A stretch of DNA of 64,000 nucleotides from Polytrichum commune (Eukaryota > Streptophyta > Polytrichopsida > Polytrichales > Polytrichaceae): NCBI GenBank assembly GCA_950295325.1, contig OX485809.1, forward strand, positions 20,336,001 through 20,400,000, read 5' to 3'. The stretch's first letter is position 1. Every line of letters starts with the position of its first letter. The notes under the pieces were generated by a model. The model was given only the letters and a program-made list of their open reading frames with translations. It was not told where the DNA came from and searched no databases. A program made the translations under genes and the position numbers. Positions 7,641-55,405 of this stretch are shown one piece after another.

Positions 7641-7649
7641 AATGACACT

Positions 7650-27465: not shown

Positions 27466-27479
27466 CTCATGGATTAATG

Positions 27480-28610
27480 TGGGTGACACTTTCACACCGA
27501 TTGTTCCCCTAGGGTGCACTATGCTAAACATATACGGCTATATGTGAGTGCACCAAAGGGATATTAATTTGAACGTTGTTGTACTGCGTATACATACATA
27601 TGCTGCATAAATTAAAACTCGTAATCATGTACATATTTGGAGGACCTTTAAAACATGTACAACATTTGTACTTGTATGGTAGTGTCACTTGACTTTAAAG
27701 CATAAGTTTTTTGTTAATGTGAATTTCATTGTGGCTTGGGGGGGGGGTAGTCATTGGTTGGAGTAGCAATATACGTGCGAACAAATGATAGGGTATTTTT
27801 AAAACATGGGGGCAAAAAATTATAAATGAACTTAAGAGTAATATAGGGTATCAAAAATGGCATTGGACATCTTTAAAGTACTATAGGGTATGGAATAATA
27901 GGTAATTTGGAATTATAAGTAATGCAAGCCATTTTTCTATTAACCCAAAGTAGAAATTTACATAATGATAGCATGTGAAAAAAAGAAGAGAATTGAAAGT
28001 AATACCCCCCTATAAAATAGTGGTTGTTCGCACCTATATCCTTAACTTTTTAACACACTGCCCCCCCCCCCCCCCGAGCATTGTGGCTATGTAGAGGTAG
28101 AGGATTCTAATGTTTTTAAAGTAAACTTGTTGGTCAATTGAATGGCAATCGATGTCATCTAAAGGTCAACTGAATTGGATTAAGGCTGGCAATTTCAATA
28201 TGAAATATAAACTCTATCCCGCAACAAATCATAATACTATGTTAAAATCTTGGTTGTGATTATGGTTGGTATTTTTTGAACCACCTATAGCTAAAATTAA
28301 TTAAAAAAACACGAGGAAGAGCAACCAACTAAGCTCCAATAAGGGTTTAATTTGTTGGGAGGGTTTATAAGATGCATAGAAAGTTCGGTAATTGTTGGAT
28401 GGACTGTAGGGATCCAATTGGCTTGATGGACTGCCCATCGAATTGTAGATTGGCTTATGTTGGTATCAAAATTGAACCAACAAGTAAACATATGATCTAG
28501 CTGATCATTTGATGGTAGATTTGGAAACATTAATTACATTAGCTTCTATGACATGTATTGCAAACCTAGATGGTTATGAGTGTCAGCGTGGGGATGAAAA
28601 AAACTTCGAT
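27480..28610 (-). repeat. R1 repeat, copy B (inverted), interrupted
   Basis: Reverse complement of copy A at 7650-8580, split by the poly-G MITE at 27735-28078. Matching blocks run from the gtgcactatg end near 27520 through tggaggacctttaaaacatg and ttggttgtgattatgg to gcttctatgacatgtattgc near 28545. An open frame at 28297-28530 on the minus strand lies in this repeat and has no recognisable product. Confidence 0.8.
27735..28078. mobile_element. Poly-G-ended MITE (8-bp TSD), copy 2, intact 344 bp
   Basis: Starts CTTGGGGGG and ends CCCCCGAG, flanked by CATTGTGG at 27727-27734 and 28079-28086. The empty site is preserved in the R1 fragment at 28742-28749, where CATTGTGG occurs once and the sequence runs on without the element. 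This fixes both the boundaries and the 8-bp duplication. Confidence 0.92.
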
Positions 28611-30447: not shown

Positions 30448-33400
30448 ATGGCCGTAGTGGCGACCCGGGCGGCGGGAGCAGGAGCAGCAGGGAGGTCGAA
30501 GCCAGCGGGGGGCGCGGGGGGGCGGGAGACTCGAGCTGGGCTGCTGTATGGTGGAGTCGGGGGAGGTGGAGGTGGGGGTGATGGCGGGGATCAAAGTGAG
30601 AGTTGGCATAGAGGAGGGGGAGGTGGAGCAGCTGCGGGGAGGATGTCGCGGAGGGAGGCTCGGGAGCAGCGCGAGTCCAAGGAGTTGAGGAGTACTAGTA
30701 GCGTTGTAGCGGGTTCGGCAGCTGAGAGCGCAGTGGTGTACAGGGATGCAGCGGGCGGGTTCGCGAGCTCCTGGTGCGGGTGTATGAGCCGGTCGGGTGT
30801 GTTGTCACCGCCACCGGTGTCCAGGAACGGGCTGCAGCGGGGAGCTAAGAAGCTTTCGGGGTCGGGAGAGATTAAAGGCGGAGGGGACATTGGGGCGTTG
30901 GTGAAGAGTTTTAGTGGTGGGTTTGAGAGGGGCGGTGGGACACCGGGGGGGTCGCCGTTTCGGCCAAGGTTGTCGCCTGGGAAAGTTTCTCCTCTTGTGG
31001 AGGTTATACCTCCTGCGCAAGCTGCACCAGTTGCAGCAGCTATGGCGCCTGCGGTGTTCTCCATGTCTAACTACTTGTCGGCAGGGAAGCAGCCGGGGGG
31101 AGTGTCGAGTTCGCCCCCCGTCGACAAGATTAAAGCTTCCCCTACGTTGTTCGAGATGATGACCCACGAGCAGGAATTGCAGGGGCCGAAGCCCTTGCAC
31201 ACCATTTCCCTCAGCCAGCAGCTCACATTCCAGGAGAAAATGAAGACCATACTGGCAGGTATAAATTATAACATCATCATTATCCTCCTCCTCGTCATCA
31301 TCATCGTCGTCATCATAATTCGTCGTCGTCGTGCCCAATGCGCAGCGGGAGGTAGAGTGGGCGACTTTGTCCTCGAAAGGGCAACCTCGGAGCCAGTGTT
31401 ATATTAACATTGCTTCCAGCATTGCCCTGCCGGACTCACAACTGTGGTCTTTCGTGAGGAAGACAATGGTATCAGTCGTGGACCCAGCCTAAGTAAGCTC
31501 CGAGAAGTAGGTTGTATAAGAAGAAGCTTTCAATGTACTCGGCAAGCCCACTTGTCTTTAAGGATCTCAATGAGCGATGTCAATGACGGTCAGGGTCCCC
31601 CTTTCACAATTTTATGGCAGAAATCGAAATGTCATTGGAACGTGGGTTGCTCCAAGAGCGGGGGCCATAGCTCAATACCTATCCTACCTCGGAAGTATGT
31701 ATCTGTATCTAGGTTTGGGGCCAAGCTAAGGTTTCTGAAGGCAAGCGAAAGGTGAAAGAATCAATCCCAAGAGGATAATAGCTAATTATGTTATCACTTG
31801 CTCTACGTATAGTCTGACAGTGGTTGTGGCTACAATGGATAGGGAGCAGCCCGGGGAACCAGTTCAACGACACGGCAACGAGCGATCTGAAGCTGACCCT
31901 GAACAACAGGGAAGGGTACAGCGTGACGGTCAATGTGCATCGGCACATATTGGTCACACACAGCAGGTTCTTCGCAGCCAAGCTTTCGGATCGTTGGTCG
32001 AAACAGCAGCGGGCGAATCCAAATCTTATCGAAATTACCGACATTGACGACGTCGAGATATACTTGGAGACTCTGCGCCTGATGTACTGTCAAGACGTGA
32101 AGAGGAGTCTAATGAAGGAAAATGTGTGCCGAGTTCTTGGCATTCTGAAGGTGGGTTCTTGGTGTAGGCCACCCCGCATGAAACGTTAGTCTAGAAGATA
32201 ATCAAATTATAATGACCACGGTCAATAAAAAGTGACCTCGCCGGTTCAAATAGGAATAGGTTATTTTGTGACGAAGACAAACCAAAAACTCTGGGTTTTG
32301 GTGATGAGCTAAAGGAAAGTTGTTGTTCTTGATGGGCATGTGCAGCTTTCTGCCCACATCATGTTCGAAGGGGGCGTGTTTGCATGCCTGGAATATCTAG
32401 AGGCCGTGCCATGGGCTGAGGACGAAGAGGAAAAGGTGACAGCTCTTCTAGGGCAGTTGCAACTGGAGAGTGTGGGTGTTGCAGCGGATGTTATGAAGCG
32501 CTGCTCGGCACTTGAGAGCTCCAACTCGGAAGACGTTCTTGTTCGACTTTTGCACTCGGTTACCAAAGGTCTGTATGTCCACAGTGCTGCAGTAATTGAA
32601 CATCTGGTTTTCAAACTCGTCCACATGACGCCGTTTTCTGAACAGTTCTTCAAAAGGGCGGCTTACTGTTCAACTGTAGAGGTGGTGGTTTTGATGCCTC
32701 TGTGCTTGTCTTCCAGGAACCGATGACAAAGCCCGGAGAGAGATGAAAGCTCTGGTCTCCAGAATGCTGCGGGAGAATATGGCACAAAACAAAGAAACAG
32801 TTGATGTGAGCAAGGAGAGTTTGTACCGAGCTTGCCACGGATGTCTTGACTCCCTGCTCCATCTCTTCATGCAGGTCTGTGCTTCCAAGTTTTTGGTAGA
32901 CCTTGTACTCTAAACTAGTCGAAGTCCTAAGCTGGTTTGCAAATCTGGTTTACCAGGCAGTATGAGAGGTTAGGTGAGATTATTGTCGGACTTACCTTTC
33001 TGTTCACCCTTTACCAATCGACCGACGATAGCTGAGTCATGCTGCTTCCATGATGTGCTGCAGTCTAAAGGTGGGGACGACAGGGGAATGCTTGTTGAGA
33101 TATCACGACAGGCAGACAACCTTCACTGGCTGGTGGACATACTCATTGACCGCCGCATTGCTGATGATTTTGTTCGCATGTGGGCCCATCAAGCTGAGCT
33201 CGCTACCTTGCACATGCAGGTGCCTGTCATGTTCCGATATGAAGTCAGCCGTCTTACTGCACGCCTTTGCATTGCTATCGGGAAGGGCCAAGTACGATTC
33301 AAATCACTCTCTCTTGCATGCCCTTATCTACTTAGGCCATCCGCAGAGAGCAGAGAGAGTGGCATGGCAGTCAAAAATTTTACCTTCTGAAATGACCTAC

Positions 33401-37200: not shown

Positions 37201-37900
37201 GGGGGCTTTGAGGCTTTAGTTGTTGGTTCTATGTTATGCTCAAGTCATTTGTTGATTTACTACCATTGACGACTGCAACATCATTGTATTTTATGTCCAT
37301 GAATGTGTCTTCTAACATGCCATGGCAAGTGAGTGAAGTCTATGATGGACATAGGGCCATAGACTTACTAATTTTACATGTAACACTATATTCGTTAATT
37401 GGAGACTTTGGAAAGTCTCAAAATAAATTGGATCCGTAGTTTCGGATGCGAATATTGTGAACGTATCGAACATGGGGAACAATGGCAACATAATCTTTTA
37501 AAGATCCATATGTGATGAATATATATGTTTCTAAATATAGTAATTATTTGGTTGATAATAAAAAACTATGGCAACACAATATTCCAATGACACAAATTCA
37601 CAATTATTTGTATTTTTTATTCTATATTGAACAAAATTAACGAATCTATAAATAGCCATCTAATTTTACAACTATGGACTCTTGGATGCGTATCCCAAAC
37701 ATAGAGATCTTAGCCTATTGTGGTTGAATTGAACGGCACATCCTAAACGCAACAATACTTAAAATAATTTGACAGTGTGCATAAGAGATTGCAAATTAGC
37801 ATCTGCAATATAATCATATAGTTTAGGGTCCACATCCGTAAAAATAAAAATATAAAAAACATTTGGATTCCACATCCGTAAATCAATGCATCCATGCACT
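34209..37900. other. BTB gene 3' flank and intergenic stretch
   Basis: About 3.7 kb without a gene I can support. The first part (to about 34700) probably includes the BTB 3' UTR. A minus-strand frame at 34893-35234 includes a hydrophobic segment, GLTGFLAIYQYFYMAAECPY, that looks protein-like but cannot be tied to exons. After 36200 the sequence is AT-rich with a CAA-rich tract near 36328-36375. Two half-copies of the palindrome family, CACATCCGTAAA, occur near 37828 and 37868. Confidence 0.4.
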
Positions 37901-38022
37901 ATAATTGTAATCTATAGAATTGCTATAAAATGTGTCTAATATAGTATTCGACCCCAATGTCATATATTTCATGAAAAACCAAGACACATTTCAAATATAT
38001 TTCGTCCAAACCTACGTCAATA

Positions 38023-40702
38023 TCATTCACCATCTTCATCTTCAGCTTCATTTCCATTCTCGACATCGTTTTCTGCAGCAGCAATACGTGCCAAGTTGTC
38101 TTTGGCAAAATCTATATGTTTTTGGGGGATGGTCATTGTCTCAGTTTTGGAACCTTTGCGTGGTTTCCAAGCACAAAGTATGGTATCCGTGTTTATCCAA
38201 ATTGGTTCGTATGCTGAGTCCATTGTCCATTTGAAACATTTTTTCGTGTCCCACCCTAAATATGTGCGGAGCACATTTTGATCTTTGGTGCTTGGACGGC
38301 AATATTCCACCTCAATTTGACGAAAATTTGGGCTAGTTGGAACAAAATTGGGTGATGACAATGCTTTCACCAACCAAACCGGTTTTGGATGCTCCTCATC
38401 TCCAGGACGTACGAGGACCATACAACCTTCGTAGCAATCAATAGCCACACGGAATGATGGAGCCGGACGATTACGAGCAGGGCCAACATAATGGTCGTCT
38501 GCCGCGAACTCTTCACGGACGTCCCCATTGTTGAAGAACATGGCCTCAGATTCCACGATTGTCACTCGGCTTTGTGGCCAAAAACCTTGTGTCAAACATG
38601 AGTGTCTATCGACATCGGGTGCTAGCAACGCTGAGCGGATGCGATCCCAATACGCAATCAATGGTTCGTGGGTATCCCGAACACGTCTTGTGATGTCTTC
38701 CTCGCACAAATCTTTCCAGTACTGGATGAATCCAGATATACCTTTGATGATTTCTGGCCCATTCCTCATGGGGTTGGGTTTGCAAGGCTTCGGCTCCCCA
38801 TCAGGTAGCATACATTTGCCATCTTCGTTTTGGCGCCAGACGAGTATTCCTTCCTCTGGACCCCAATTTGGGGAGGTATACAAAACTTTGAATTGCATGG
38901 CCGGCAGACCATCATCACGCATATAGAACCGGAATTGTTGAGCCTTGGTATGGCCCACTAAGCGATCACCTCTCTTAAGAATGAATGGTTTGATAAACGC
39001 TTTGAAATCGGACACTTCTTCAATCAAATGCGGGATAACTGGCACATTATCCAAATCCATGTACGATTTCATGAGAAGAGGAATTGTGGGAAAATCCTCC
39101 TCGTGCAACTTCATACTCCAACGTCCGAATGAAACATCAATGTCATCGTGCGTGTGGCCAACCATCAAAAAAGACACAAACACTTCTTTGAAAATGCCCT
39201 TGGCTACGAGCAATGACCAAAAACAAAATATGTATCGACATTTGTTGTCCTTGGCACAATTATCAAGTTGCACATGTAGAGTTGGAGGCAAAGGTTTGGC
39301 AAGAACGGGTTGTTCAGGCGGTTCTTGCAGTGAAGATAGGCAAACCTCCCTTCCCTCTAGTACAGCCTCATAAATCGGTGTTGTTCTACATCCAACAAAA
39401 AGAGCACGAGAGGATGATGTTGGCGGACTCTCAAGATCTCGTAGAAGTTTTGCAAAAGACCCTACGGTATGATTGGCGTCACCAGAATAAAAATCCAAGC
39501 CATAATGTGCATATTTCACGTCCACATGGTCATGTGCGATCATACCTGTATTTAGGGACACACATGAAATAGTCACTCTAAAATCATATATATGAATGAA
39601 ATTCAAAATTTCCGCAAGCAAGCCAAAAAATGTACACTTATGGACGTACATCCGTAAATCTTAACAATGAGTATGTGGGCACGCAAAAAATAAATGTGAA
39701 AACCAACAAACCTGTGACAGATATTGGAAGCTTGAAATATCCATCTGTAGCTTTTATTTTTCGTGCATAACAAGGGCACGCCGTCTTTGCATGGTCCATT
39801 TTGTCATGAATGATTGTCAAAACCTCATTCGGCCTCATTATCGATAATGCGCGATTCTTGTAGTAGTCTTGACGGTGTGCCTCCTGGTTGTTGACATGCT
39901 TAATGTATTTCAGTTGATGTCTGTTGTGCGACTCAGTACCTATGGGATGTGCATCTCGAAGGCCTTTATATTTCTCACAAGCAGAACACCTGGCAAACTT
40001 ATCCCTGGGTCTCTTTGTAATGTATTCTGCGAATTGTTGATTCTTAATCACACTCAATTTTGACAACGAAATCGGCCCACATCCAGCTTTTTCGCCAACT
40101 TCATTAACATCCATAAGTATGTTCTTCCATTTTGTCCCTGTAGGCAAAACCATCTGAACAACCTTTTCCCCCGACGGTAGAGTCCGCGTCTTGTGTGGCA
40201 TCGCATCTGCCAAAGGCATAATGATGGTTGATAGTGTTGCAGCCGCTTGGAGTGTTGCCTCCCTAGGTTTTTTTGTGCCAGAGTTACCATGGAACCGAGA
40301 ACGGCGTACTTGCATCGAATAGTTCCGGAACCTATAAAAAACTGCCTTTGAAACTGCATGTATAATGTACCATGCCTTGCAACATATCTCTACATTCTCC
40401 AAGGTCACAACCTTACGACCTTCGGCATCAAGGTGCATGTTGCGATGGACTTCAAGTTTCTTTGCAGATCGCATACGAAAGTCCGCGAGCCACATCTCTT
40501 GTCTCAAAGATTTGATTTTGTCACGGGGAAATAATTGGCAACATTTCTTTGCACAACAATCTTTTGTTGCTACAGACCTAATAGATGCGTCTCCCAATGT
40601 TTGATCTCGACGACGTTGCGTGGGTTCACGAGGCAAACGAACGGAATCATATTTACGGCGACCTATTCTAGGGCGCATTGTGGCGAACAAAGCCGATTGC
40701 AT
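38023..40702 (-). CDS. DUF7869-type transposon protein, two exons, 837 aa
   Basis: Exon 1 40702-39712 and exon 2 39545-38023 join through a GT-AG intron in phase 1, giving 838 codons including the stop. The N-terminal half has Cys-rich pieces (CCAKKCCQLF, ARCSACEKYKG, ACPCYARKI) that could bind zinc. The C-terminal half carries HDHVDVKYAHYG, then LHVQLDNCAKDNKCRYIF and, about 25 residues on, SFLMVGHTHDDIDVSFGR. The QLDN...NK...VGHTHxDID pattern is typical of DUF7869 proteins, which occur in high-copy transposons of plants and animals and look like an RNase H-fold transposase core with Asp residues in those motifs; activity has not been shown as far as I know. The 166-bp intron contains a degenerate copy of the palindrome (39637-39659). 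The upstream frame may belong to the same protein (next entry). Confidence 0.75.
39637..39659. repeat. Degenerate palindrome in DUF7869 intron
   Basis: TTATGGACGTACATCCGTAA, a decayed copy of the palindrome family with core ACGGACGCGCGTCCGT, lies inside the only intron of the DUF7869 gene. Confidence 0.6.
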
Positions 40703-40726
40703 TTGATCAAAACAGCAGGAATGATT

Positions 40727-41116
40727 CTACAAGCTAACACCATCATGAAAAACACTGCGCAACGGCCATCGACGAAGAGAGAATCTCCAACCAGTAGGCA
40801 CTTCCAACGGATGTAAGGAATTCAAAATGCACACCCCCACATCTTCTTCCCCAAGGGGATTTGCATCAATACAATCCGTAGGATTCGAGTTCCGACAAAC
40901 ACCATCCGCCACGGTGACGCCACATCCATTGAGTAGGACGACATCAAGATCAATCCATTGCTCCCGCGAATAACCCTCACATGGTGGAAGGAATTCATCC
41001 TCTACATTGGCGACACCAATTGTAGTATCTTGTTCCACGACAACTTCAAACTCGCTATCATAGCTTGACGCTTCCGAAGAAAAATCAACCCCACTATCAC
41101 CGACGTTGGAATCCAT
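40727..41116 (-). pseudogene. Upstream frame of the DUF7869 gene, split off by a TAG
   Basis: Starting from an ATG at 41116, 129 codons run to a TAG at 40729-40727. The same frame then continues without interruption into the ATG at 40702 of the DUF7869 exon. The product is acidic (EASSYDSEFEVVVEQDTT) and contains SLRRWPLRSVFHDG. Because frame is kept on both sides, this is best read as the original N-terminus cut off by a CAG-to-TAG change; alternatively the downstream ATG is the true start and this is an upstream open frame. Confidence 0.55.
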
Positions 41117-41260
41117 GGCCACTACAAGAAAGCCCAATGAAGAGTATGTCAAAATATCTCATTCAATAAATGTCATGAATAGCCCTAACGCTTATTATTG
41201 TCAATGAAACACAATGTGAACACTAGTGGCTTTCATGGCTTGGAAACAAAACTAGCATTG

Positions 41261-42110
41261 GTATACGAACGTGCGTCCGTATACCTCCATGTAACAACAT
41301 CAGCAACGCAAGCACACGTGCATACGGATACATTTATGTGTTCATAGGAGCGGAAAGGTGGAGGCAACAAAAACATCACTGGTTTATGGACGCGCATCCG
41401 TTAATCGGCTCGTGCACAAAGTTCAGTATCATGCTCAACCACAACATAGGTATACGGACGCGCGTCCATAAACATCCGTATGACAAACATCAATGTAGTC
41501 CTAGACACAGGTTCAAGGAAGCAAGACGCCCTCCAAAAACGGCCATGTGTACACAACCCTGACGACTCATGAAATTTGAAGAGGATTGAACACGGCCATA
41601 CGCGCTTCCTAAAATGTTTAATCAATGTCAAAATATTTTACTATGACATAGGATGATGTAGGCTAAGGGATGCGAGCTCCCAACCCTTCCTGACCGTACA
41701 GTCTCAGTGCAGTCTCAGTCTACATGGCACATGGTCAACATTATGGTAACAAAGGTTTCCAGGTTTACGGACGCGCGTCCGTAAACCTCTGTGGACCTCA
41801 TTCCTAGCATAAAGACAGTGCTCGATGGAATACACCTCTGTGGACATCATTAGTAGCCTAAATACAATGTCCAACGCGCCAAGGGGTTTACGGTTTACGG
41901 ACGCGCGTCCGTAAACTTCCATGGTAATATATTGTCGTTGTGGTACTCTACACGACAAGTGGTGTAGGTGACCTACAGAACTATGGCACCAAAGGTATGC
42001 AGGTTCACGGACGCGCGTCCGTAAACATCCACGTACATGAGTATTGGCTCAAACAAATAAAGGTTCAATGAACCAATATGTTTAAGGTTTACGGACGCGC
42101 GTTCGTAAAT
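41261..42110. repeat. Palindrome array 5' of the DUF7869 gene (seven copies)
   Basis: Copies at 41261-41284, 41381-41406, 41451-41472, 41761-41788, 41893-41916, 42003-42026 and 42087-42110. The copy at 41761-41788 is a perfect 28-bp palindrome and that at 41893-41916 a perfect 24-bp one; the core is TTACGGACGCGCGTCCGTAA. Others carry one to four changes, mostly C-to-T or G-to-A. The copies lie in otherwise unrelated sequence within 1 kb upstream of the minus-strand DUF7869 gene, spaced roughly 60-310 bp apart. Confidence 0.9.
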
Positions 42111-43157
42111 CTCCGTGATTTGCGGCGTTAAAATAGGATCATTGCACCAGAAATGATAACTGTCCGATTTTTTTTTTTAAATCAGCACACTACAAGGAGA
42201 GTGCAACCCAAATACAAATTGTCTACCCTAATGGGCTCAGGATTTGGGGTTTAGGGTATAACATGATCTTTACCTGCACAAAATCTGTAGCTGGAGCACA
42301 CTACAAGAGCGCAACCCACAGCTGAGATGCAAAAAAAGTCCCGATGGTGGGGGGTGTCCCCTTAAGTACTGATCGCTTTCCCTTGGATCCGTTTTCCAAC
42401 ATAGGATACCAGCCACCAACTATGTCCTATAAATACAAACCTAGCATTACTACATTCTGTGTGCCAGCCTTACAATGGAATGTGTATTCATGTGGACAAC
42501 ATGCATAGACCATGAGTCCACATGATGACAAAGAGAAAGGCATCTATGTATTTGTGGTATACAACAAAGTAAATTGGCTAATATTATATGAGCAATAAAC
42601 ATTGTTGAGGGGTGGTTTATAGGATTGGAGTACATAATATGAAGAATACATTTTAAAAAACGTAGACAAAAAATTATAGAATCTTGTGAAAAATCAACCA
42701 CCACAACAACAATAGTACATGGAGTATAAAAATACATGTAATCAAAATTAAATTAGCAACTACTTTATTGTTTTGCATACAATGTAATGGTATTGACCAT
42801 AATATCATGCCATCTCCTCTCATCTTGCATTTAATATTATAATTACATTGGCCACCGCCTTACCATCCAACATGTTTAATGTACCCAACTATACACACCT
42901 ATACATAATTGTATTGATATCTGATACACAAACTTTGATTACCGTAAGGCCATGATAGTAGCACATCTATTGTCCTAGGTAACATGGGTTGCATTCAATT
43001 CAATATTGTCAATTTGCTCTCTAAACCTTAGGGGCCCCTTCCGTACATCAACATTTACTTCAAAAAAACTAATTATACTAGCCTTCTTCATGTACTATAC
43101 ATGAGGAAAAACATTTTTTAGTACCTCATGTACATTACCTACATTAATTAATACTCA

Positions 43158-43330
43158 AACAATACCAATTGTTGCTCCAAGTAACATTATTAGCCCAAAA
43201 AAACATAATGGAGAGAAAGGAAGGGTAGGGTATCCACATAGTAATAAGGCAAGCAATATTAAGTTGGTGACGCAAGGGGGATACTCATATGCGTTCGTAC
43301 GTGGTACCCTAAACCCTAAACCCTATAACC
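43158..43330. repeat. Duplicated unit with telomere-type repeats, copy 1
   Basis: Shares with 43440-43612 an ordered series of blocks: accaattgttg, gtaacatta/cacta, agaaaggaagggtagggta, agtaataaggcaagcaatat, ggtgacrcaagggggata and a tract of about two to three CCCTAAA units. The telomere-type tract is too short to be a chromosome end. Confidence 0.85.
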
Positions 43331-43439
43331 ACCCAACCCTAAACAAGCATGTGGACATATAGGGGTGCAAGCATGGTTAACTGAACAACTCCTGATACAT
43401 GTCAAGGCTTAAATGGAAAGTAATTCAAAACAAGCAAGC

Positions 43440-43612
43440 AAACAATTATACCAATTGTTGTTCTACGTAACACTATTAACCCATAAAATATAATGGACAG
43501 AAAGGGAGGGTAGGGTAGGGTATCCAAATAGTAATAAGGCAAGCAATATTAAGTCGGTGACACAAGGGGGATACCCTAAACCCTAAACCCTAAACCCTAT
43601 AAACGACTCCCC
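43440..43612. repeat. Duplicated unit with telomere-type repeats, copy 2
   Basis: Second copy of the unit at 43158-43330, ending in about three to four CCCTAAA units near 43572-43600. The two copies differ by scattered substitutions and a short insertion in copy 1 before the CCCTAAA tract. Confidence 0.85.
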
Positions 43613-46600
43613 ACTCATGTCAAGGCCCAAAATTATCTAAAATAAAACCATAAATATTTCAAAAGTCAAGCAAATTTATGTTCACAAATTATACTTCAAG
43701 ACAGTAAGTGGTGAAAAAGTAGGTGACATAGAACAAAGATTTATCAAATTGTCAATGGCAATCCTAATTACCCTATATGCGTAACCTTACATTTCATTTT
43801 TTTAATCTTTATTTGGCTGGGTAAAATATACCCCTTAGAGGCAAGTACAAGATTTAGCCGGGACTTGTTATCCTTTGATGTGACCTCAAGTTTATAATGA
43901 AATGAAGGGATACAATATGAAAACAATTAAGCCTTCAAAACATTTAAGATCATCAAAGTTATGTTCTGAGTCATATTTATCCATTTGCTTTAAACCTTTA
44001 CTTTTGAAGATAGGTTTTGAACAACATTAACACAACCATACATGTCACCATCATGGAAACAAAACTCCAATATAAACAACAATTTGCTACTACTTATAGG
44101 CGATAATACAAGCTCTTGCCTAGGTTTGGAAGGATTGGATGAATCCTGAACGTTGTTTAATGTACAAGAGGGATGTAAATTCAACACCTACCCATGCCTT
44201 TTGTTTTAATGCAAGCTTAGACCTATGTGCAGAGGGATTGAATTAACCCCTAACATTGTTTAAGATTTTATAAGCATTTGATCTTAACCCATATTATCTC
44301 GATGTTTGGTTTTGTTTATTGTGTTTCAAATGTGCATAATTTAAATATCATTATTTATAATGATATTCGCATCAAAGCATCCCATGTGTCAAACTTCAAT
44401 AAAGTTTTCAAGTTGCTATTGATAGTATAATGTAGGGTTGAAAATCCCCTTACACAAATTATTGCGATAATTGAGGGATTCATAAGGGTGTAGGGGCAAC
44501 GTTTCATGAGAATTTGTGGCCAATGGGTAATGCAATTGTCCCAATTGCATTTGAATCCCACCTTTGTGAAAAAAAAAATTATACTTAACTTAATCAAGAA
44601 GACATCCTTTATATTCAATATTATTACTATTCTTAAAATATAAAGTCCCCTCCATACTTGCTACACTAGAAATGGTATAATTTAGTTTCACTCATTGTTT
44701 GGAGTTACAAAAGGCTTTATCTTTTTATTATTGATGTTATTTAATTGATGCCAATGACATAATATACAATGAATAGTTAATATAGCAATCCATAATTCTA
44801 AATATTAAGCAATACTACTTATAATAGTTAGTGTACTAGTAATTTAAAGCCCGCTTACCTTCATATTACAACAAGTCCACAAAGAAAATCTTACACTTGA
44901 GTTACTCAACCTCAACCTATACTTCAGAATTATGTTTACTATTGGGCCTAGATGGTTATTATACATTGAGCATTGAGATTCCTTTATTTTTGGTCAGCAA
45001 TTGTTTTTGGCATATGTTCTTGGACTCAAACAACATACAATCCATCCTCTATAAATGTTAGGCTCTAGAATATAATGTTCCTAACATTTATTGTGAGTTG
45101 ACATTGTAACAATTATAAAGGGAGCTTTTTGAATGCTTAACAAATTTCATTCATTACAATTATGAAGGGAGAGTTTTGCAAAATTATCAAACATAAAATA
45201 TGTGTATCAATCACAATATAACCCATATTAATAATTTGATCACAAATTTGGTGGCTTTTGCCACTTTGGAAGGTTGTGACTCAATGTAATGGATGTCATC
45301 TCACAATATTGGATGTAGTTCGTAGGTTAACATTTATAAGTGACAAACTAACAAAGAGGGGAATAAATTATTCTTAACATTTAACAAAGTTAACATTCTA
45401 GTTAGCAATATGAGAGGAGTACGAATTTGTTAACAAATACAATTATGAGTTAACATGTGGAAGTGTGACATTTATCGAGGGTGGACTCTAGCACTCTAAT
45501 ATAGACCAATAGACATATGCCACGTAAGGGGAACGCGTGGCCTTTGGGCGCGGGGTGATGGGACGTCTAGGTAGGGGCGTTTGGGAGGGAGTGGATGCAA
45601 CGTTTTGGGTTTAGGGTTTCGTGCATTCGCCCTTGCCCTTTTTGCTTTCACCCTTTCACCCTTTCCTCCTTTCGCTCCTTTCCTCCTCCTGCATTCCTTT
45701 GTTGCTCGCCCTTGCTCCTCTCGATCGCCCTTGCTGGTCCTCCTTCTCCTCCTCCTCATTCTCCTTCTCCTTCATTCTCCTCCTCAATCTCCTTCTACTT
45801 GCTGTTTCTCCTCATTCTCCTCCTCCTTCTACTTGTTGTTTTTCATCCTTCTCCTCTTACTTGCTGTTTCTCCTCTTTCTCCTTCTTGCTCTTGATTTGT
45901 TGCTTTGTGTCTTAGTTGCATAAGAGCGCCGGGAGCTCTAGCCAGGTGTTTTTTTCTTTCCTTCACTCCAAGATGTGCTGTTCCAGGTGCTTATTAGGTG
46001 ATTTCAGTGTATGTTTTGATGCACAAGAGGGGGATTGTAAGATTGTAAGATTGTAGCTGGTTTAGGGTTTCTAAGATAATGTATGTGAAGAAATCTGAGT
46101 ATGTTTGTGAAGAAATTGAGTAGTTTTTTGCTTGCAGTCTCATTAGGACATAATTGGAGTAGTTTCAGTTGGAAGGGTTTTAGGGTTGGAGTAGTTTTAG
46201 TTGTTTCAGATTGCTCTTCCCTTCATATTGTAATTGTCTTCACTTCACTTCAATTCACTTTGTCCAAGTTCTAAGAAGTTTTGCTTTGTTCACTTCAATC
46301 TGATGTCAATGTTGAATCCAGTTCAATCTTTGTAGTAGGGTTTTTTTGTGGGTTTGATGCATTTTAGGAGCAACACAAAGGTTAGTTGATTCTTGAATGT
46401 GCACATTGCATTTGCAGAGGTTTCTAACTTCAATTCTATTGTTAATTTGCAGTCTCTCCTAGCTGCAGCTGTGGTTTAGGAGCAAACATTGTACAAAGGT
46501 AAGTGTTTCATACAACATTGCAATTTTGAAATGATACATTCTTCTTAGTTTGGAGTGTAGAATATGCTATTGCAATGCAACACCTCATACATTCTAATCT

Positions 46601-46719
46601 GGAGTGCAAATCCATGTTGCATTCCAAGTTAAGATGAACATTGCACATGAATGTAATGCACAGAAAAAGTTCTTCTGAAAATTTCGGAACAATATCCAAA
46701 AATACATTAACAATAATTG

Positions 46720-47060
46720 TACAAAGTACTTAAATTCACAGTAATTAAAAAATGGTCTGAAGTTTACGGACGCGCGTCCGTAAACTTCAGGGAACCCTGG
46801 GAATAAGCATCGCAAATTGTGTGAAAACATTAACAATAATTGTGCGAAGTAATTAAATTCACAGTAATTAAAAAAATGGTCTGAAGTTTACGGACGCGCG
46901 TCCGTAAACTTCAGGGATCCCTGGGAATAAGCATCGCAAATTGTGTAAACACATTAACAATAATTGTGCAAAGTAATTAAAATCACAGTAATGCCTGAAG
47001 TTTACGGACGCGCGTCCGTAAACTTCATGGAACCCTGGGAATAAGCATCGCAAATTGTAG
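46720..47060. repeat. Three tandem ~118-bp units, each with a long palindrome
   Basis: Three direct repeats each contain ttaacaataattgt, aattcacagtaat, the palindrome, ccctgggaataagcatcg and caaattgt. The palindromes in these units are the longest in the window: perfect over 34 bp at 46757-46790 and 46881-46914, and 32 bp at 46996-47027, extending the core with CTGAAG/CTTCAG arms. Confidence 0.92.
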
Positions 47061-47547
47061 AGATATTTCAAAATAACTATTAATAAACTTGAGATATACA
47101 AAAATCTTGAGATATACTTGAAATCTAATACATGATACATGTGCAGAGTTTATGGACGCACGTCCATAAACCAAGCAGAGAAAACATGAGAATCTTATAA
47201 CATGATACATGCCATGGGTTTTCAAAATAAGTTCTACAATATATACAAGTTCTATACAACAAAAACAAACATATTTTCTAAAAATTTACAGACGCACGTC
47301 CGTAAATAAGGGCTACCTAAGAATAAAAAACCTATTATATTCCAAAATATAGAAATAAAGACTTTTGGATGATATATCCGCATGAGTTTACGGACGCGCG
47401 TCCGTAAACTCTGCACATATATCATGTATGAGATTCATTTTAATAAGATATCTCAAGTTTACGGACATAAACTATAACATAATACATGTGTAGAAACCAC
47501 ATTCTATATGAGAATGAACGCATAGGTTTACGACCGCGCGTTCGTAA
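46757..47547. repeat. Palindrome array in leader intron (eight copies)
   Basis: Copies at 46757-46790, 46881-46914, 46996-47027, 47148-47171, 47284-47307, 47385-47410, 47457-47472 and 47525-47547. The copy at 47385-47410 is a perfect 26-bp palindrome. The one at 47457-47472 (GTTTACGGACATAAAC) lacks the central part. Surrounding sequence outside the 118-bp units is unrelated between copies, so the palindrome itself is what recurs. Confidence 0.9.
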
Positions 47548-48907
47548 GATAGGCTCTGCATCCCTTGACCATAATACTGATTTATATATTTTACATTTGT
47601 AGATGGAATCTACAAAAAGACCAGCTATTGATATATTCGTAGAGCTTCTCCATCCTCCACTTCCAGACGCCATCAAAGATATCAACCACAACGACCATTA
47701 TAAGCCACGCGATGACATTGTAGATAACTGGATAGTTATTGTAGAAAAAGATGAAAAGGAAATATTTGTCCTTAGATTTGCCTATCAAATAAAAGCAGAT
47801 ATAGATGAAACCGAGAAGTGGATCAAGGTCAAAAGTTGGATAGTAGAGTGTGCGGTAGCTCAAGGTGATTATGTTGTCATTGACCTTGAAAAGAAAAATA
47901 ATAGGATCACATTCATTTTGCACGAGTTGTACCATCCGTTCAACAAAAATGAATGTGAGAATGCCAGTCCAGATGCGTCTTGCTTCAATCTACAGAATGA
48001 ATTCAAAGACTATGCATGTAATGCGCCCTGGACGGGTAAACGGCTTGGACGTCTTTTGAACAACGTGACAAGAATAAATGGGGCATTACTCGAAGCCAAG
48101 AAAGGAAAAGAGAAGAAAAAACCAATTCCTGAACGACCTAAACGTGTTCCTAAACACGTGCCAGAAGCCTCCAGACCCTCACAGAGTGGAGCATCAAGAG
48201 GGAGCAAGCAGGCCAGTAAACGCTCCCACTCACAGATGGAGTCGTCTGGGCTAACATAGGGTCCAGATGTGAGTTCCACTCTTACAGTCGCCCCACTTCT
48301 CAAGAAAGGACAACGCCCGGACGCCGAACTATCCACAAAGATTTTCCAAGAGTTCGACGAGAAGACAAAGGGCTGCTGGCCGATTGGCAGATATTTCACG
48401 TTTGATGTGGATGTCTATAAATGCCACAAGGGCACGGAGAGTATGAATACTCGTGCCAAAGAAGAGAGCGGGGTGTGGTGGCAAATGAATAACATTATAA
48501 ACAACCCCAAGTTTGATAGGCAAACAATATGTGTGACACCAAAGGATCCTGTGGTTGAAGTCACAGCGCAAAATTGGCCAATTCTCAAAGATGGAGAGTT
48601 CTACATAGTCGACGGCCAACATAGCGTGATGGCTGCAAAAGCTCTCCTCGAGGACGATGAGTGGAAGAGCCCTTTGAAAGAGACAATCTGATACTGGAAG
48701 GCATTTGTCGTCCATTCCAAAGATTCGAACCAGCTCATCGCAATATCTGCCTTCATGAACCAAGGGAATAAAGTGAGGCAGTTCGAGGCTTCATGGGCTG
48801 CCAACATCGTGGCTGGAAGGACCTTGTGGGTGGAGCACGATTGTCCCCCAAAAGAGAGGAAGAATGCAGTCATCAAGAATTCCAAATGGCATGTATGTCT
48901 CTGTATA

Positions 48908-48931
48908 TTTTCACGGATGCGCGTCCGTAAA
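48908..48931. repeat. Palindrome in intron 48893-49005
   Basis: TTCACGGATGCGCGTCCGTAA, shortened here to its recognisable core CACGGATGCGCGTCCGTAA, sits 15 bp into a 113-bp intron of the ParB-like gene. Two positions differ from the consensus. Confidence 0.85.
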
Positions 48932-50370
48932 CCTCTTCCTCCTTCCCATTCTTTAATTCCTTCAATTTAAACTCTGCTGACTTCTTGAAATGCATGGCTT
49001 TGCAGACATTCAGCAATGCCATCTTGACAAAGTTGTCCAGCATTGACATGAAGACGAGCGGCATGAAGACGGTGCAGGAGCTGAAGGGGGAACTTAAGCT
49101 CAACACTGCCACAGAAGAGACATGGGCAATTTGGTTGCGCCTATTCGATGCTCACAACAATGGAGACCTTATCAACCCGGATGCTGAAAACACGTACAAG
49201 AGCGACTCAAAGGTTAAAGTGCCACCTATCCTAAGAGAGTTCTTTCGTCCCTTCCAAAAATTGCTCGACTCCGAACTTTACAGAGCAGCACAACACATCC
49301 TGTTGGAGACTCCAAGGAGGACACTGCCCTACCCCAAAATCTTCCTGAAGAAGCCGAAGCACATGAAGCCTTCTACGTACCACATTAAGGAATGGTGCGA
49401 ATAAAAGAAGAAGAAGACCATGGCTATAAGGGAGATTAGCAAGTTGTTGCCCTCCCACAACCTCACTAATACAGATGGTGAGATAATGTGGGAAAACTGG
49501 AGGACGCTCAAGGAGGAATACCACATCAATGGGGTCTCCATGCGATCATTGATAAGACGCGCATCTCCCTTCCTAGCCCAAAGATCTAGGAGGAACGAGA
49601 AGAAAGGGTCTATTGATGAAAGAGAGACGGCGTTGTACGTGCATTTTCTTGACAGAAAAAACAAAGAAAAATTCGGAGGGGTCGCAAGATTCTGCACAGT
49701 GACATCGGCCTTGAAGTTTGGCACATGGGACACCCATGCTTCAAGAGCCTCTGTGAGAGATGACCCCCGGGGTTGTCCGTTCGCAATCTTTGATTTCCGT
49801 GCATTTCCTGGATCTTGGAGACAAAACGTTGGCGGGACCGCTTTCTATGACAACTTCTTCAAGGCCTTCAAGAGCTATCGGTCGCCTGCCCTCTTCGAGC
49901 CAAATGTGTGGCTCTGGATCGTAGATCAAGAGAGGTCCGCATCGATCGTCCAGCTGTACACATCGACGATGAACCTCCAATACGATTTTTACCACAACAC
50001 ATACATCCCCGCGAAGACTGAAGGGATCAGTGTTATTGAAGAGGCAAGATGAACGAAGCAGGCCGGGGCTGTGGCACTTTATTTCTTGACACACAAGTCT
50101 TCACCAAGTGGACGGATGCCTATCAAAGCGCAGAACGTGTTCAAGAAAGTATACTCGTTGTCACCACCACACCCCAAGGAGCTTGTCGCGGAGACTATGT
50201 ATGCACTCTACCCGGTGTACGAGCTCCGAATGGATTTTTATATTGGAGTCTTGAAGGCTGTGACTGTGATGAGTGAAACAATTTACAACGTCTTCGGAGG
50301 CACCAAATTTGTTTATGCGGCATTGGTAAGTACTTGTATGCACCTCTTTCCATGCTCCATCTGAATTGAA

Positions 50371-50491
50371 ATTTACGGACGCGCGTCCGTAACATTGCCC
50401 ACCATATATGCAGTGCAAATTTACGGCCGCGCGTCCGTAACATTGCCCACCATATATGCAGTGCAAATTTACGGCCGCGCGTCCGTAAATT
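50371..50491. repeat. Three palindromes in 48-bp tandem repeats, intron 50326-50569
   Basis: Palindromes begin at 50371, 50419 and 50467 with a period of 48 bp; between them the spacer cattgcccaccatatatgca is repeated. The second and third have GGCCGCGC in place of GGACGCGC, a shared change showing that the duplication copied an already altered site. Confidence 0.92.
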
Positions 50492-51901
50492 ACACTGCTT
50501 CATGTTAATATTTGTCCTCATACTTGCTCGCAACAATGGAATGACCATAATTTCCTTGTTTTGGTGCAGATGCTTGGGTTGCAGGTAAATTCGTTTGTGG
50601 AGGCTCGCGACATGGATGAGGCGAATACTCATAGAGTTCTTGCCTCCAAAATGGATATCGAAGACATCATCGATATCCTTACCCCCATCCTGTGGTGCCT
50701 CTTGCCTCAAGAGAAGAGGGAACTCCTGCGACGGAGTGGGATAGTGACGGAGACCAAGAGCCCGTGTCCCCAAGAGAGCAGCCCGCCAGACAAGATCACG
50801 TACCCGGCCTTGTTCGTGATCATGTTCATCCTCATCAATTTGTCTTGGGCGAAGACCGCATGGATACAGAGGAGGCGCATGAAGACTTCACTCCAATAAG
50901 GGTCCATCCTACCCCTATTCCCTCTCCTTTTGGGACTCCCACTTCTCGAGTTGGGTTTCCTTCCACTGCGGGTCCATCGCGTGCTGCTAGGCTTATGGCT
51001 TATGGCTTATGTGGACGTTGCGACAGAAGCCGGATGCACAGCCTCATCTGGAGGGGGCTCTGAACAGGCAGAGCTACCACCTATGGAGGGTAGGGACGTG
51101 CTAGAGTTGATTTTGAGGCCAGATATCGCCTCATACCATGAGAGTCGTCGACAGAGGAAGAAGACTCCTTACAACGAGTACCCTGAAGGCGCCGTCTTGG
51201 AACTCTCTGATGAAGACGAGGATGAGGTTAGGATGTACAATGCCCTCTCTGCGTTGCCTTCTGAACCTGGCAAGGTGAAGAAAGAGCCTATGTCTGTGGC
51301 CGAATTGGACGAGAAACTGGAGAAGAGAATGAAGGAAGAGCTTGACCAACGGCTTCGAGAAGCTAACGAGGAGCACGCCAAAAAGATGGCCGCCATCCAA
51401 GCTGAGATGGAGGAGGCTAGGTTGGAATCTGCTCGAAGGCACGCCGATCTCATGGCTCAAAATCAACACTTATTGGCCCAAAGCCAACAATTTATGAGCC
51501 TCATGCAGAGCTTGCAAGCAAGACCCCCGGTAATGTATGCAGCTCCCAAAGCCGGCATGTCGATGCCTCCCACTCTCATGCGGCCTCCGTCTAGTAGCCA
51601 TACGGTGTACATACCAGAGCATACCTATCTAACCCCCGCCTTGTATGTCCCGCCCTCACCCTAGGTTGCTGCCACCCCAGAGCCCTCCTCTCATACGGTA
51701 CGAGAAGAGGAGAGACTTGCAAGTTATACGGCAGGTGCTCACGAGAAAGGCGCCATTGAAGACAACACAACCATTGGCAGCCAAGAAGATGAACATATGT
51801 GGGGCAGCCAAGACGCCACAGATGAAGATCAACCTTATGTCGACACCCAGGGGTCGCAAGCGGTTGGAGGCACCTTGGTGGTGGAGGATAGCTCGCACAA
51901 A

Positions 51902-51922
51902 TTTCCGGACGCGCGTTCGGAA
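51902..51922. repeat. Palindrome copy in coding exon
   Basis: TTCCGGACGCGCGTTCGGAA lies inside the third coding exon of the ParB-like gene, where it would be read as FPDARSE. It is the only copy found in a presumed exon and has compensating changes that keep the symmetry (TTCCGGAC / GTTCGGAA, one mismatch). Confidence 0.8.
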
Positions 51923-52013
51923 CGTGTGCCCACGATGGGGCCTAGTGAGCCAGGCACTGCTGGCGAGGGCCTCGCCGCTGAAGAGGTAATCCACCTTTGA
52001 GCTTGCCTCCCAC

Positions 52014-52034
52014 ATTACGGACGCGCGTCCGAAA
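52014..52034. repeat. Palindrome in intron 51986-52326
   Basis: ATTACGGACGCGCGTCCGAA within the intron that separates the coiled-coil exon from the HAD exon. One arm position is changed. Confidence 0.85.
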
Positions 52035-52326
52035 CTTCCTTGTCTGCCAACTTCGTGGCGTGTGTATATTGTCGAGTTCGATGCTCGACTTCGCCCGGCG
52101 GGTGGATGCAATTTTGCCAGCATAGATTCAATTAGTTTTAGAGGAGACCTTTTGTGACAATGTAAATTATTCGCGAAATGTATTAAACCAAGCACATTAA
52201 TACAATTTTTTTGAACTGGGTAGTTCGTATTCTTTTTGCCTTATATTTGTTTGTTGAGTTTGTGCATGCTTGTCAATTGGTTTTCATGGGTAGTACCATT
52301 CACCTAGATAGTATGTTCCATCACAG

Positions 52327-53094
52327 GGTCCGTCGGAGATATGTCGCAACCCAACTGAAAGACCAAGCCGGCCCATGAGGAAACCGTTCATAATATTTGA
52401 CCTCAATGGCGTGCTTTGTCATTCCATGCATATCTCCAATAGTGCGTCGAAGGGTCCCTTCCGTAGTCCACAAGACATGGATTACGGCGGACAGTTCGAT
52501 ACTCCCATTAACAAGAAGGTTGTACGGGCCCGGCCCGGGTTGAGGTGCTTCCTTCGTGAGGTCCTTGGGTTGGCCCATGTCATCATCTGGAGCTCTATGC
52601 TCATGGACAACACGAAGGCCATCGTCGGTTTCCTTTTCCGAGAACTCGCAATGCCATGCTTGCTTCTCAGTCAAGAACACTGCGATGACCTTTATGACCG
52701 TAGCGGCAACATTGTACCCAAGGTCGGAGGAGGCCGAGGGCCTCAATTCCTAAAGGTACTGAGGAAGAACCTTTGGGTGGGCGTCCCTATGTTGGAGGGG
52801 GTGCCCCACGGTTGTTGGCCCACCCCGGAGAACACGCTCCTCATTGACGACAACCCGGCAAAGAGTATTCTCAATCCCCCGGGCAGTTGCATATTCCCGG
52901 ATCCTTGGGAGAGTGATAGAAATGACAACTTTCTAGAGAATGAACTAGGACCCTACATTAGGAGGCTTGCCTATCACCCCGGAAGTGTCCCGGATTTGGT
53001 CCTCTCCAACCCCATTGGCAATAGGCCTCTAGGCCCAAGAGATGAGGAATTTAGGAGGTTGTACGGCTATGCCAAACCCAATAAATTAATATGA
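52327..53094 (+). CDS. FCP1/NLI-interacting-factor-like HAD phosphatase domain
   Basis: Open for 255 codons from an acceptor at 52326 (ATG at 52375) to TGA at 53092. HAD motif I is IIFDLNGVLCHS, with DLN in place of the usual DxD, so the acid/base Asp is replaced by Asn. VRARPGLRCFLREVLGLAHV and IIWSSMLMDNTKAI match the FCP1-type motif II region, and TLLIDDNPAKS is motif IV. FCP1-type enzymes remove phosphate from RNA polymerase II CTD or other Ser sites; with Asn in motif I the activity here is doubtful. The preceding exon ends in phase 0 at 51985 and this one opens in phase 0, so it reads on from the ParB-like gene; it could instead be its own gene starting at 52375. Similar 'DLNGVL' proteins occur in plants. 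Confidence 0.72.
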   Translation, partial: GPSEICRNPTERPSRPMRKPFIIFDLNGVLCHSMHISNSASKGPFRSPQDMDYGGQFDTPINKKVVRARPGLRCFLREVLGLAHVIIWSSMLMDNTKAIVGFLFRELAMPCLLLSQEHCDDLYDRSGNIVPKVGGGRGPQFLKVLRKNLWVGVPMLEGVPHGCWPTPENTLLIDDNPAKSILNPPGSCIFPDPWESDRNDNFLENELGPYIRRLAYHPGSVPDLVLSNPIGNRPLGPRDEEFRRLYGYAKPNKLI

Positions 53095-53182
53095 GAACTG
53101 ATTTTTGGGTTTGTACTTGGACTCTCCATGTTTATATCTAACATTTCTCCCCTTATTTTGTAAATGTATTTTTGTGTCTTAG

Positions 53183-54067
53183 TTGCCTCACCAAGCATCC
53201 CAAAGTCTCGTCGATGGCATGTGTGCATCTAAACCGGGCCCCAGCTCCCCTTCCATTGGTGTGACCGACATTTCAATGCCTTCACTATTTCAATTTTCAG
53301 CCGTCGATGCCGCCTCTGCTGTTGATTACTCCAAAGACTCGGGGTTTGAAGACGGAGTTGTCGATAGCCCTCCTCCAAAGGTTGCAAAACACAATTACGC
53401 TCCATCTCCATCTCCATCTCTCCTCCGCAATGAGAAGCACGTTCAAAACCCGCGGTCGACCAGACGCCTTTGTATGGATGAACCCCAAATTGATGTCCCG
53501 GCGTTTATGAGCGTCCCTGTTGTGCTTGTGGCCCCCCTCGATGTCTCAGAAGGTCAAACCACTGCCCCGCAGGCCAAGGTGCCCAATTATTGGCATTATC
53601 AAGTTTTTCCTTCATGATTTCCGTGTATTAGTGCATTTCATATTCTTGGGTTTTTCGGACTTCCATCCGTAACTTATACTAACCCACGTCATTATATGTA
53701 TTTATGGTCATTGTTTCAGACCCCAATACACATGAATGTGGGCCGTTCATCCTCGACTTCGTCATTGGATAGGCGAACACTGAAGACTGCTTCTTGCGAG
53801 TCTGATCGTTGTTTGGCCCTACGGAAGAGTGAAAGACATTCGGTTTCCCAAACACATTCGTATTCCACTTATTCGGTAGGGGGTCAGCAAATATGGGCAA
53901 ATGGCACATATTCGGGGTCGACAAATAGACAAGGTTACAGCTGCGGACCCGAGATCTTTAGGGCCATGGAGGCCATGAAAGCAAAAGACCGTGAAACGGT
54001 TGTAAATGCTAATAATAGTATTGCAAAAACAAAAGTACTGAGTCGTAATCATGATCCGAACGTATAG
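53183..54067 (+). CDS. 3' exons, unrecognised Ser/Pro-rich protein end
   Basis: Two open blocks, 53183-53578 and 53720-54067, join in phase 0 across a 141-bp GT-AG intron and end at TAG 54065. The first starts right after an acceptor (tgtcttag) and has no ATG near its start. The product is Ser/Pro-rich with a short helical end (FRAMEAMKAKDRETVVNANN). It may be the C-terminus of the gene containing the HAD exon, if the TGA at 53092 is a nonsense change and a 70-bp intron starts at 53113, or the tail of a separate gene. An AATAAA lies near 54164. The intron holds a weak palindrome relative (53651-53675). Confidence 0.5.
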
Positions 54068-54189
54068 GCTATATTAACATACATGTAGTTGTGGAATTAT
54101 GTTTCTAGGACTTTCGCCTAATATTGGATATTCCACTTGCATTTTGTACTTCAACCCCTATTCAATAAATATGATATTGATTTTCCATA

Positions 54190-55405
54190 TGCAAATGTTT
54201 TCATATATCCCATTTTCTTATTTTTATGTGTAGTTCCATGCATTTGAGTCTCTTATTTGTTTCCAAAATTGGGAACATAGCATATTTTTAGTGTTTTCCT
54301 TCCTACAAATGTGAAAGCCACGTCCTTAAATAGTCTCAAAATTAACGAATATAGTGTTATGTCGATGAACTATATCATGGGGGAGTATAAGCAACTATGG
54401 TATGTCGACAGTGATTTCACATTCTCACAATCACGTGGTTTAAGCAAGACCATAATAGGTACCTCAATATCACATTTATTTGCACATACAAGTGACCTAT
54501 ACCAAGAACCAAAAGAAAAGGAAAACTTTCAAATAAAAGAATTTCATTGAAGAAATTTGGATGTCATCCAAATAGTGTGGCTTTGAAATTTTGTTCAAAA
54601 GGGCAATCCAATGAGCTAATTGGCATAAAAATCAAGATTGGGACACTCTAAATACCTAAACTTGTCAAAATGTCCGAAATACGTATGACTACTCCATTAT
54701 ATAACTTGAACAAGTTCAGAGTTAAGGCTAAACAAATCTTCTTACCGCAGTTTTAAACTTTCACTACACTATTAAGTGTTGTGTTTAGTGTCATATGGTA
54801 TTTTATGTCACTGTGGTAAGATCTCTAATGACACTTCTAAAAAATAGGTTTATAAGTATTGTCCTCCCAACTTACTTTCAGTTCATCCAAATACCAATTA
54901 TTGAAACAAGGTTTGATATATTTTTCTTGCTAACATTTTCGTACTGAAACATTGTCATGAATGATTGAGATTCTAATTAATGACATAATTAATGAATGAT
55001 AATAATTGCAAGATTTGTAATCTATAATGCCCAAATTTGTTTTCAAGGATGGACAAATAATGCCAACTTTACATTTAGTGTTGGTTTTCCACACGGGCAG
55101 TTTACAATTAGTATTGAGCAAATAGAATTGGTGACACAAAATACGATATGTAGTGTAGTAAGCATTGTTGTTTTTACATGATTATGGGTTTTGATGGAAT
55201 AGTCTAAGTCAATGTGGTGGAAGGGTCATTACAACCACAACCAATCAAGCAGAAGCTCTGTGTAAAAAGACCTCGAATCCCTTTTCATTGCATGTGGTTG
55301 GCTAGGTCTCAAATGATAAGGCAACGAAAACTTAACATACATATTTGATTTCTTATTCAAGCCGGTTAACACCAAATTAATGTTAAACACTGTAGTATGT
55401 AGTGC
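54190..55405. other. Gene-free AT-rich stretch
   Basis: I see no supportable gene. Small frames at 54311-54550 and 54996-55181 lack domains and splice context. Confidence 0.45.

Follow-up and report, generated by a model that had tools for sequence, protein, structure and literature searches.

A 64,000-nucleotide stretch of Polytrichum commune DNA (contig OX485809.1, positions 20,336,001 to 20,400,000; hereafter the window) contains a decayed DNA transposon of 16,977 bp (window 37382-54358), which carries two divergent genes, one coding leftward for a DUF7869 protein and the other running rightward in four exons, as well as repeated copies of a 20-bp palindrome. We read this element as a two-gene transposon whose accessory protein, the right-gene product, would bind the palindromes of its own element and keep it open against silencing, a reading to which we give a probability of about 0.45. 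Self-recognition is the best explanation for the association of a predicted ParB-like domain with dyad-symmetric sites in the element's own promoters and introns and with a site type that tracks the protein, and the right-gene protein probably recognizes the DNA of its own element.

The element has sharp borders when copies within the same 408-Mb genome are aligned (11 copies examined, among them A1-A4, B1-B3, C1, D1 and D2), and carries AACACTATATTCG inverted repeats at its ends. A 4-bp target duplication flanks all eight copies whose two ends were read (window ATGT, A1 TATA, A2 ATTT, A3 AGTT, A4 TTGT, B1 ACAT, D1 ACAT, D2 TTTG), while copies B2, B3 and C1, with right ends alone read, stand outside this count. 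Duplications of 4 bp are also made by the Sola superfamily, with which the element shares this length. The size of a complete copy is 15.3-17.3 kb (seven measured). Within subfamily A, A1 is 98.4-99.6% identical to A2-A4 in the main blocks although the target duplications differ, indicating that the family transposed recently, and a genome search with the first 199 residues of the right gene returned at least 150 scored matches (755 candidates). The window copy itself is a relic, since its right gene contains six internal stops (exon 1 residues 219 and 363; exon 2 residues 133 and 349; exon 3 residues 110 and 365) and its left gene one in-frame stop. A preliminary description of this DNA had placed a plant transposon gene at 47603-53094; the gene and its transposon setting stand, but the element is far larger than that feature. 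In copy B2 (L019) another right end of this transposon type lies at joined position 2139, some 14.5 kb further upstream than the first, marking a neighbouring or nested copy. Telomere-like CCCTAAA repeats occur within the transposon in the window (43305-43611) and in A1 (L009 5550-5616).

The palindromes belong to the element, as had been proposed: 22 sites within 5 mismatches of TTACGGACGCGCGTCCGTAA, the 20-bp palindrome, lie in the window copy and none in the remaining 47,023 bases. Genome-wide the pattern TTACGNNCGCGCGNNCGTAA occurs 1,609 times and its reversed control not at all; among 50 of the 1,609 places, all on contig C1, a hand count put 39 within 10 kb of a scored right-gene match and 11 elsewhere. 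The sites are concentrated outside coding sequence, with coding positions accounting for 1/22 in the window, A1 and B1 and for 2/28 in D2 against a coding share of 45-50% of the element, whereas the introns make up 4.8-6.6% of its length yet hold six, five and eight sites in A1, B1 and D2, respectively. Several sites reside in tandem arrays with unlike units, which measure 124 and 48 bp in the window copy as against 95 and 135 bp in A1; in copies C1 and D1 clusters were judged by spacing alone. Among ten sites from clusters and introns, hand-picked in a choice biased to good sites, identity is 90-100% across the 20-mer but 15-47% across the 80 flanking bases, so that the 20-mer itself, rather than its surroundings, is what has been kept; the five bases adjoining the site on each side are 20-90% identical, being more alike in some pairs. 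Past CG methylation visible as CpG decay was also considered and found weak support.

The two halves of the palindrome differ in sequence between protein clades. Sites with ACGGAC in both halves (GG) account for 19/22 in A1, 19/22 in B1, 18/22 in the window copy and 25/26 in copy C1, while ACGAAC occupies both halves (AA) at 25/25 sites in D1 and 28/28 in D2, whose exon 1 protein is 46-47% identical to the A1 and B1 versions. The intron 1 site repeats this division (L004 row unused; L001, the window copy, and L008, which is B1, not recounted), being GG in 15 of 17 A-clade copies, with B1 mixed and L045 AA, and AA in all nine of the 12 D-clade copies read that bear the site (not found in L034, L048 and L049). 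Database open reading frames (ORFs) that extend past the exon end into the palindrome give a further readout, TDARP/YGRASV corresponding to GG and TNARS/YERSFV to AA. With clade set by identity to the query, and with 36 of 37 exon 1 relatives and 36 of 52 exon 2 relatives used, 12 of 34 A-clade ORFs were readable and all were GG, and 21 of 36 D-clade ORFs were readable and all were AA; two distant ORFs were unreadable, and ORFs of exon 1 and exon 2 may share one element. The half-site thus appears to follow the protein clade, an association that is strong between the two clades yet corresponds to one evolutionary split and is not absolute in clade A. An absolute pairing is ruled out by the A-clade copy L045, with five GG, two AG and two AA sites in 6.7 kb. 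This mixed copy (L045, L050, L051) possibly represents a lineage in transition.

The right gene encodes a product of about 1,600 amino acids. Every motif quoted in the preliminary description occurs in the window where it had been placed, and the proposed phase-0 exons are borne out by their GT-AG junctions. Seven other copies were inspected for exon marks and six are spliced alike, copy C1 being excluded because the marks of exon 4 and of the start of exon 2 could not be located; the four exons are free of internal stops in A1, A2, B1 and D2, while B3 has one stop and D1 a frame shift in exon 2. Database protein P0001 (863 amino acids) spans the exon 1-2 junction without an intron, in agreement with the proposed splice. 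The window copy, interrupted by its stops, does not form one open polypeptide. Between A1 and B1 the ratios of nonsynonymous to synonymous substitution rates (dN/dS) are 0.073, 0.090, 0.32 and 0.18 for exons 1-4 (the exon 3 end used for splicing and dN/dS takes in one intron codon, and synonymous sites are saturated in the D2 comparisons of exons 1-3); the right gene is under purifying selection. The gene occupies the same place in A1, B1 and D1 and, by DNA alignment, in C1. The synonymous rate (dS) between A1 and B1 varies along the element (0.86, 0.84, 0.43 and 0.19 for exons 1-4), which suggests that the subfamilies are recombinants.

Scans of the right gene against Pfam, PHROGs and NCBIfam returned NIF as the sole match over a curated cut-off, and among solved structures sequence searches with exon 1, exon 2 or the DUF7869 protein found nothing below E 0.07. 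Exons 1 and 2 were modelled separately. In the AlphaFold model of the DGQH region, ParB/Noc ranked first in the fold search (best E 0.017). DGQH is present in 31 of 37 relatives carrying exon 1; of the six lacking it, five are fragments of at most 302 residues and the other, P0029, has GGQH. In the P0011 model DGQH sits between a strand (334-338) and a helix (343-351), so that both the relatives and the model place it as a nucleotide-site box of the DGQH(R)/GERR kind at a helix start, which we take to be the hallmark of the ParB/Srx-like superfamily. The proposed ParB-like region gains the top of the fold ranking but falls short of significance, and a ParB-like fold in exon 1 is backed by models rather than proven. 

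For exon 2, methyltransferases fill 48 of the top 50 Foldseek rows (best E 0.059), and the order of strands and helices in the AlphaFold model fits a permuted arrangement with the motif-IV strand ahead of the motif-I strand. DFR is present in 48 of 52 relatives carrying exon 2, and a glycine at the place of motif I, G453, is nearly invariant. Alignment of the profile to phage beta-class methyltransferases with hhalign was not significant (probability 1.5%; global alignment weaker), the local score being 21.1 against at most 19.9 in 60 shuffled controls. A Foldseek search of viral models returned methyltransferases mixed with RNA polymerases and others, none at E < 0.001, and no fold search with either the ParB-like or the methyltransferase-like model gave an E-value below that figure. 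The check proposed in the preliminary description, that profile comparison and structure prediction should return both folds with significant scores, was answered in part: both predicted folds top their lists, but significance was not reached. A methyltransferase-like fold with permuted order is likewise backed by strand order and ranking, though not proven. The suggestion that DFRAFPG is motif IV did not survive as a statement about sequence, although the segment holds that place in the model. Beta-class amino-methyltransferases use the catalytic motif [DNS]PP[YFW], which is absent from all 52 exon 2 relatives, making an ordinary active adenine or cytosine amino-methyltransferase, as the preliminary description had it, unlikely. 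The conservation of DGQH and DFR together with the low dN/dS indicates that these motifs are more than chance.

The claim of a HAD phosphatase domain was confirmed by a NIF/CTD-phosphatase-like match in exon 4 (Pfam PF03031, E 3.3e-13, 50.1 bits against a cut-off of 21.8), while among solved structures a sequence search found nothing for this exon up to E 0.01. The catalytic motif of NIF and CTD small phosphatases is DxDx(T/V); the corresponding residues in the window, A1, B1, D1 and D2 read DLNGV, with asparagine in place of the second aspartate. The leftward protein matches Pfam PF25273 (DUF7869, E 2.1e-38), a domain not named in the literature searched, and is likely the transposase because of its position and conservation. 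Coordinates of these features are collected in the table.

Table. Features of the transposon in the window, in order of position.
Feature	Position	Strand	Basis
Left terminal inverted repeat, AACACTATATTCG	37382..37394	+	copy-end alignment
Left gene, DUF7869 protein; two exons, ~39711-41116 and 38023-39549	38023..41116	-	Pfam and exon marks
Palindromic site, left-gene intron	39638..39657		
Seven palindromic sites upstream of left gene	41263..42109		
Seven palindromic sites upstream of right gene, three in a 124-bp tandem repeat (46700-47058)	46764..47548		
Right gene exon 1: predicted PH-like N-terminal domain, linker, ParB/Srx-like region with IVDGQHSVMAAKAL	47603..48892	+	models and sequence
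Quoted motif IVDGQHSVMAAKAL	48605-48646		
Palindromic site, right-gene intron 1	48911..48930		
Right gene exon 2: helical region, then predicted methyltransferase-like fold (DFR 49792-49800, VFGG 50290-50301)	49006..50325	+	models and sequence
Quoted motif FDFRAFPGSW	49789-49818		
Quoted motif NVFGGTKFVYAAL	50287-50325		
Three palindromic sites, right-gene intron 2, in a 48-bp tandem repeat	50373..50488		
Right gene exon 3: expected end of methyltransferase-like fold LGLQVNSFVEARD (outside model), then low-complexity/coiled-coil-like part	50570..51985	+	sequence
Quoted motif MLGLQVNSFVEARD	50570-50611		
Palindromic site, end of exon 3, the sole coding one of 22	51903..51922		
Palindromic site, right-gene intron 3	52015..52034		
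Right gene exon 4: HAD/NIF (CTD-phosphatase-like) domain, DLNGVLC	52327..53094	+	Pfam PF03031
Quoted motif DLNGVLC	52399-52419		
Quoted motif LLIDDNP	52837-52857		
Two further open stretches, possibly part of the right gene (53183-53617 and ~53720-54067); counterparts present in A1, B1 and D1	53183..54067	+	
Palindromic site, decayed, between the two stretches of the preceding row	53653..53672		
Right terminal inverted repeat, AACACTATATTCG inverted	54346..54358	-	copy-end alignment

Elsewhere in the window, a single 947-residue open frame on the minus strand (19656-22499) has a DDE_Tnp_1_7 domain (E 1.5e-70), presumably of piggyBac type, and appears to be an intact second transposon gene. An open stretch on the plus strand (32974-33387) with a BTB-POZ_ANK-like match (E 8.3e-24) is probably part of a host gene. 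Window segments 26864-28540 and 7393-8574 contain pieces that match an interior part of A1 (positions 6385-7322 of its joined stretch) at up to 96.5% identity, reflecting a shared smaller repeat or fragments.

Transposons of this kind have been described before. The brown-algal Ectocarpus element Sola1-1_Ec32 carries an accessory gene with ParB and N4C/N6A-methyltransferase domains on the strand opposite to the transposase, and the same paper cites similar genes in transposons of green and red algae (PMC12477816). Both that element and the moss element are giant DNA transposons with an accessory gene running opposite to the known or likely transposase gene, the ParB-like and methyltransferase-like domains of the moss product being predicted from fold ranking; the moss element differs in its DUF7869 partner, its additional HAD domain and PH-like part, the length of the product (about 1,600 against 1,104 amino acids), the absence of the standard catalytic motif, the presence of candidate target palindromes and its plant-like genome. 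Searches for ParB in plant, algal, Chlamydomonas or moss transposon literature gave no plant case among the matches listed, so that the statement that no described plant transposon of such architecture was known holds to that extent, although algal cases are known. Sola1 is listed for Physcomitrella (PMC9033089). Fungal DNA transposons also carry a gene related to DNA modification, but theirs encode TET/JBP dioxygenases, which demethylate and are not ParB- or methyltransferase-like (PMC12730594). Within the literature searched, it is new that a member is of plant type, that it adds HAD and PH-like parts, that it lacks the catalytic motif and that its palindromes are matched to the protein.

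The closest parallel for the proposed function is with VANDAL transposons of Arabidopsis. The motifs bound by VANC21 of VANDAL21 are short and lie in introns and in intergenic and terminal non-coding parts (PMC5735166), and VANC targets are often tandem repeats whose motif types vary among subfamilies (PMC5735166, PMC10398659). The moss element shares the repeated motifs in introns and intergenic regions, their frequent tandem arrangement and fast turnover, and the difference in motif type between subfamilies. It differs in transposase, motif and protein domains, the VANC domains DUF1985 and DUF287 having no match in our Pfam scans, and the comparison on the moss side is one of sequence.

In the mechanism we propose, the DUF7869 protein would serve as the transposase of the element. 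The accessory protein would combine PH-like, ParB/Srx-like (DGQH) and helical modules, a methyltransferase-like module without the standard catalytic motif, a disordered or coiled part and a CTD-phosphatase-like HAD domain, and would bind the 20-bp CG-rich palindromes between the divergent genes and in the introns, probably through dimeric, ParB-like recognition. Bound protein may then hold the promoters and gene bodies of the element open against host silencing, as VANC does; anti-silencing as the function is suggested by this analogy and is put forward tentatively, at somewhat less than even odds. The main rival holds that the protein is a transposition factor joining the element ends via the palindromes, and is paralleled by TNPA of En/Spm, which is a transposition factor. 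The many binding-site-like repeats in one element and the retention of the right gene beside the DUF7869 gene would suit such a role, but the sites are central and intronic, the outermost ones of the window copy being 2.3 kb inside the left end and 0.7 kb inside the right end, and we regard end-joining as unlikely.

The palindromes might instead act as DNA or RNA hairpins in recombination, splicing or array formation, unrelated to the protein. Perfect inverted repeats in introns, tandem-array expansion as a mutational process and some symmetrical double changes, of a type hairpin-templated repair could produce, are consistent with this, yet the 20-mer is kept in clusters with unlike flanks and, few exceptions aside, genomic copies and database ORFs alike show the half-site tracking the protein clade, leaving hairpins improbable. 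An active methyltransferase that marks its element with N6-methyladenine or N4-methylcytosine, as in the marking system of the preliminary description and in the proposal attached to the Ectocarpus Sola1-1 gene (PMC12477816), would accord with the predicted fold of exon 2 and the conserved G453; against it stand the loss of [DNS]PP[YFW] from every exon 2 relative, with DFR in most of them, and the non-significant comparison to phage enzymes, and it appears quite improbable. The right gene could, lastly, be a captured host gene or passenger with no role for the element, as its HAD/NIF domain, from a widespread family, could have been captured; its constant place in the element and the purifying selection between A1 and B1 make this highly improbable.

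A more speculative reading, which we hold to be doubtful but worth stating, is that a bacterial-type ParB-methyltransferase fusion became a sequence-specific self-recognition protein, its fold turned from amine methylation to binding or other chemistry, while protein and palindrome (ACGGAC versus ACGAAC) diverged together. Such a protein would parallel VANC anti-silencing by convergence, with a ParB-like clamp on palindromes operating in a eukaryotic nucleus. For accessory proteins of the ParB-methyltransferase-like kind, binding and marking of the parent transposon have been proposed, the target sequence being unnamed in the available text (PMC12477816). In the moss element the likely target is visible, in two versions that match two protein clades, and the proposal can thus be tested directly. 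If true, it would constitute a second, unrelated sequence-specific anti-silencing system and would place a ParB-like palindrome reader in the nucleus.

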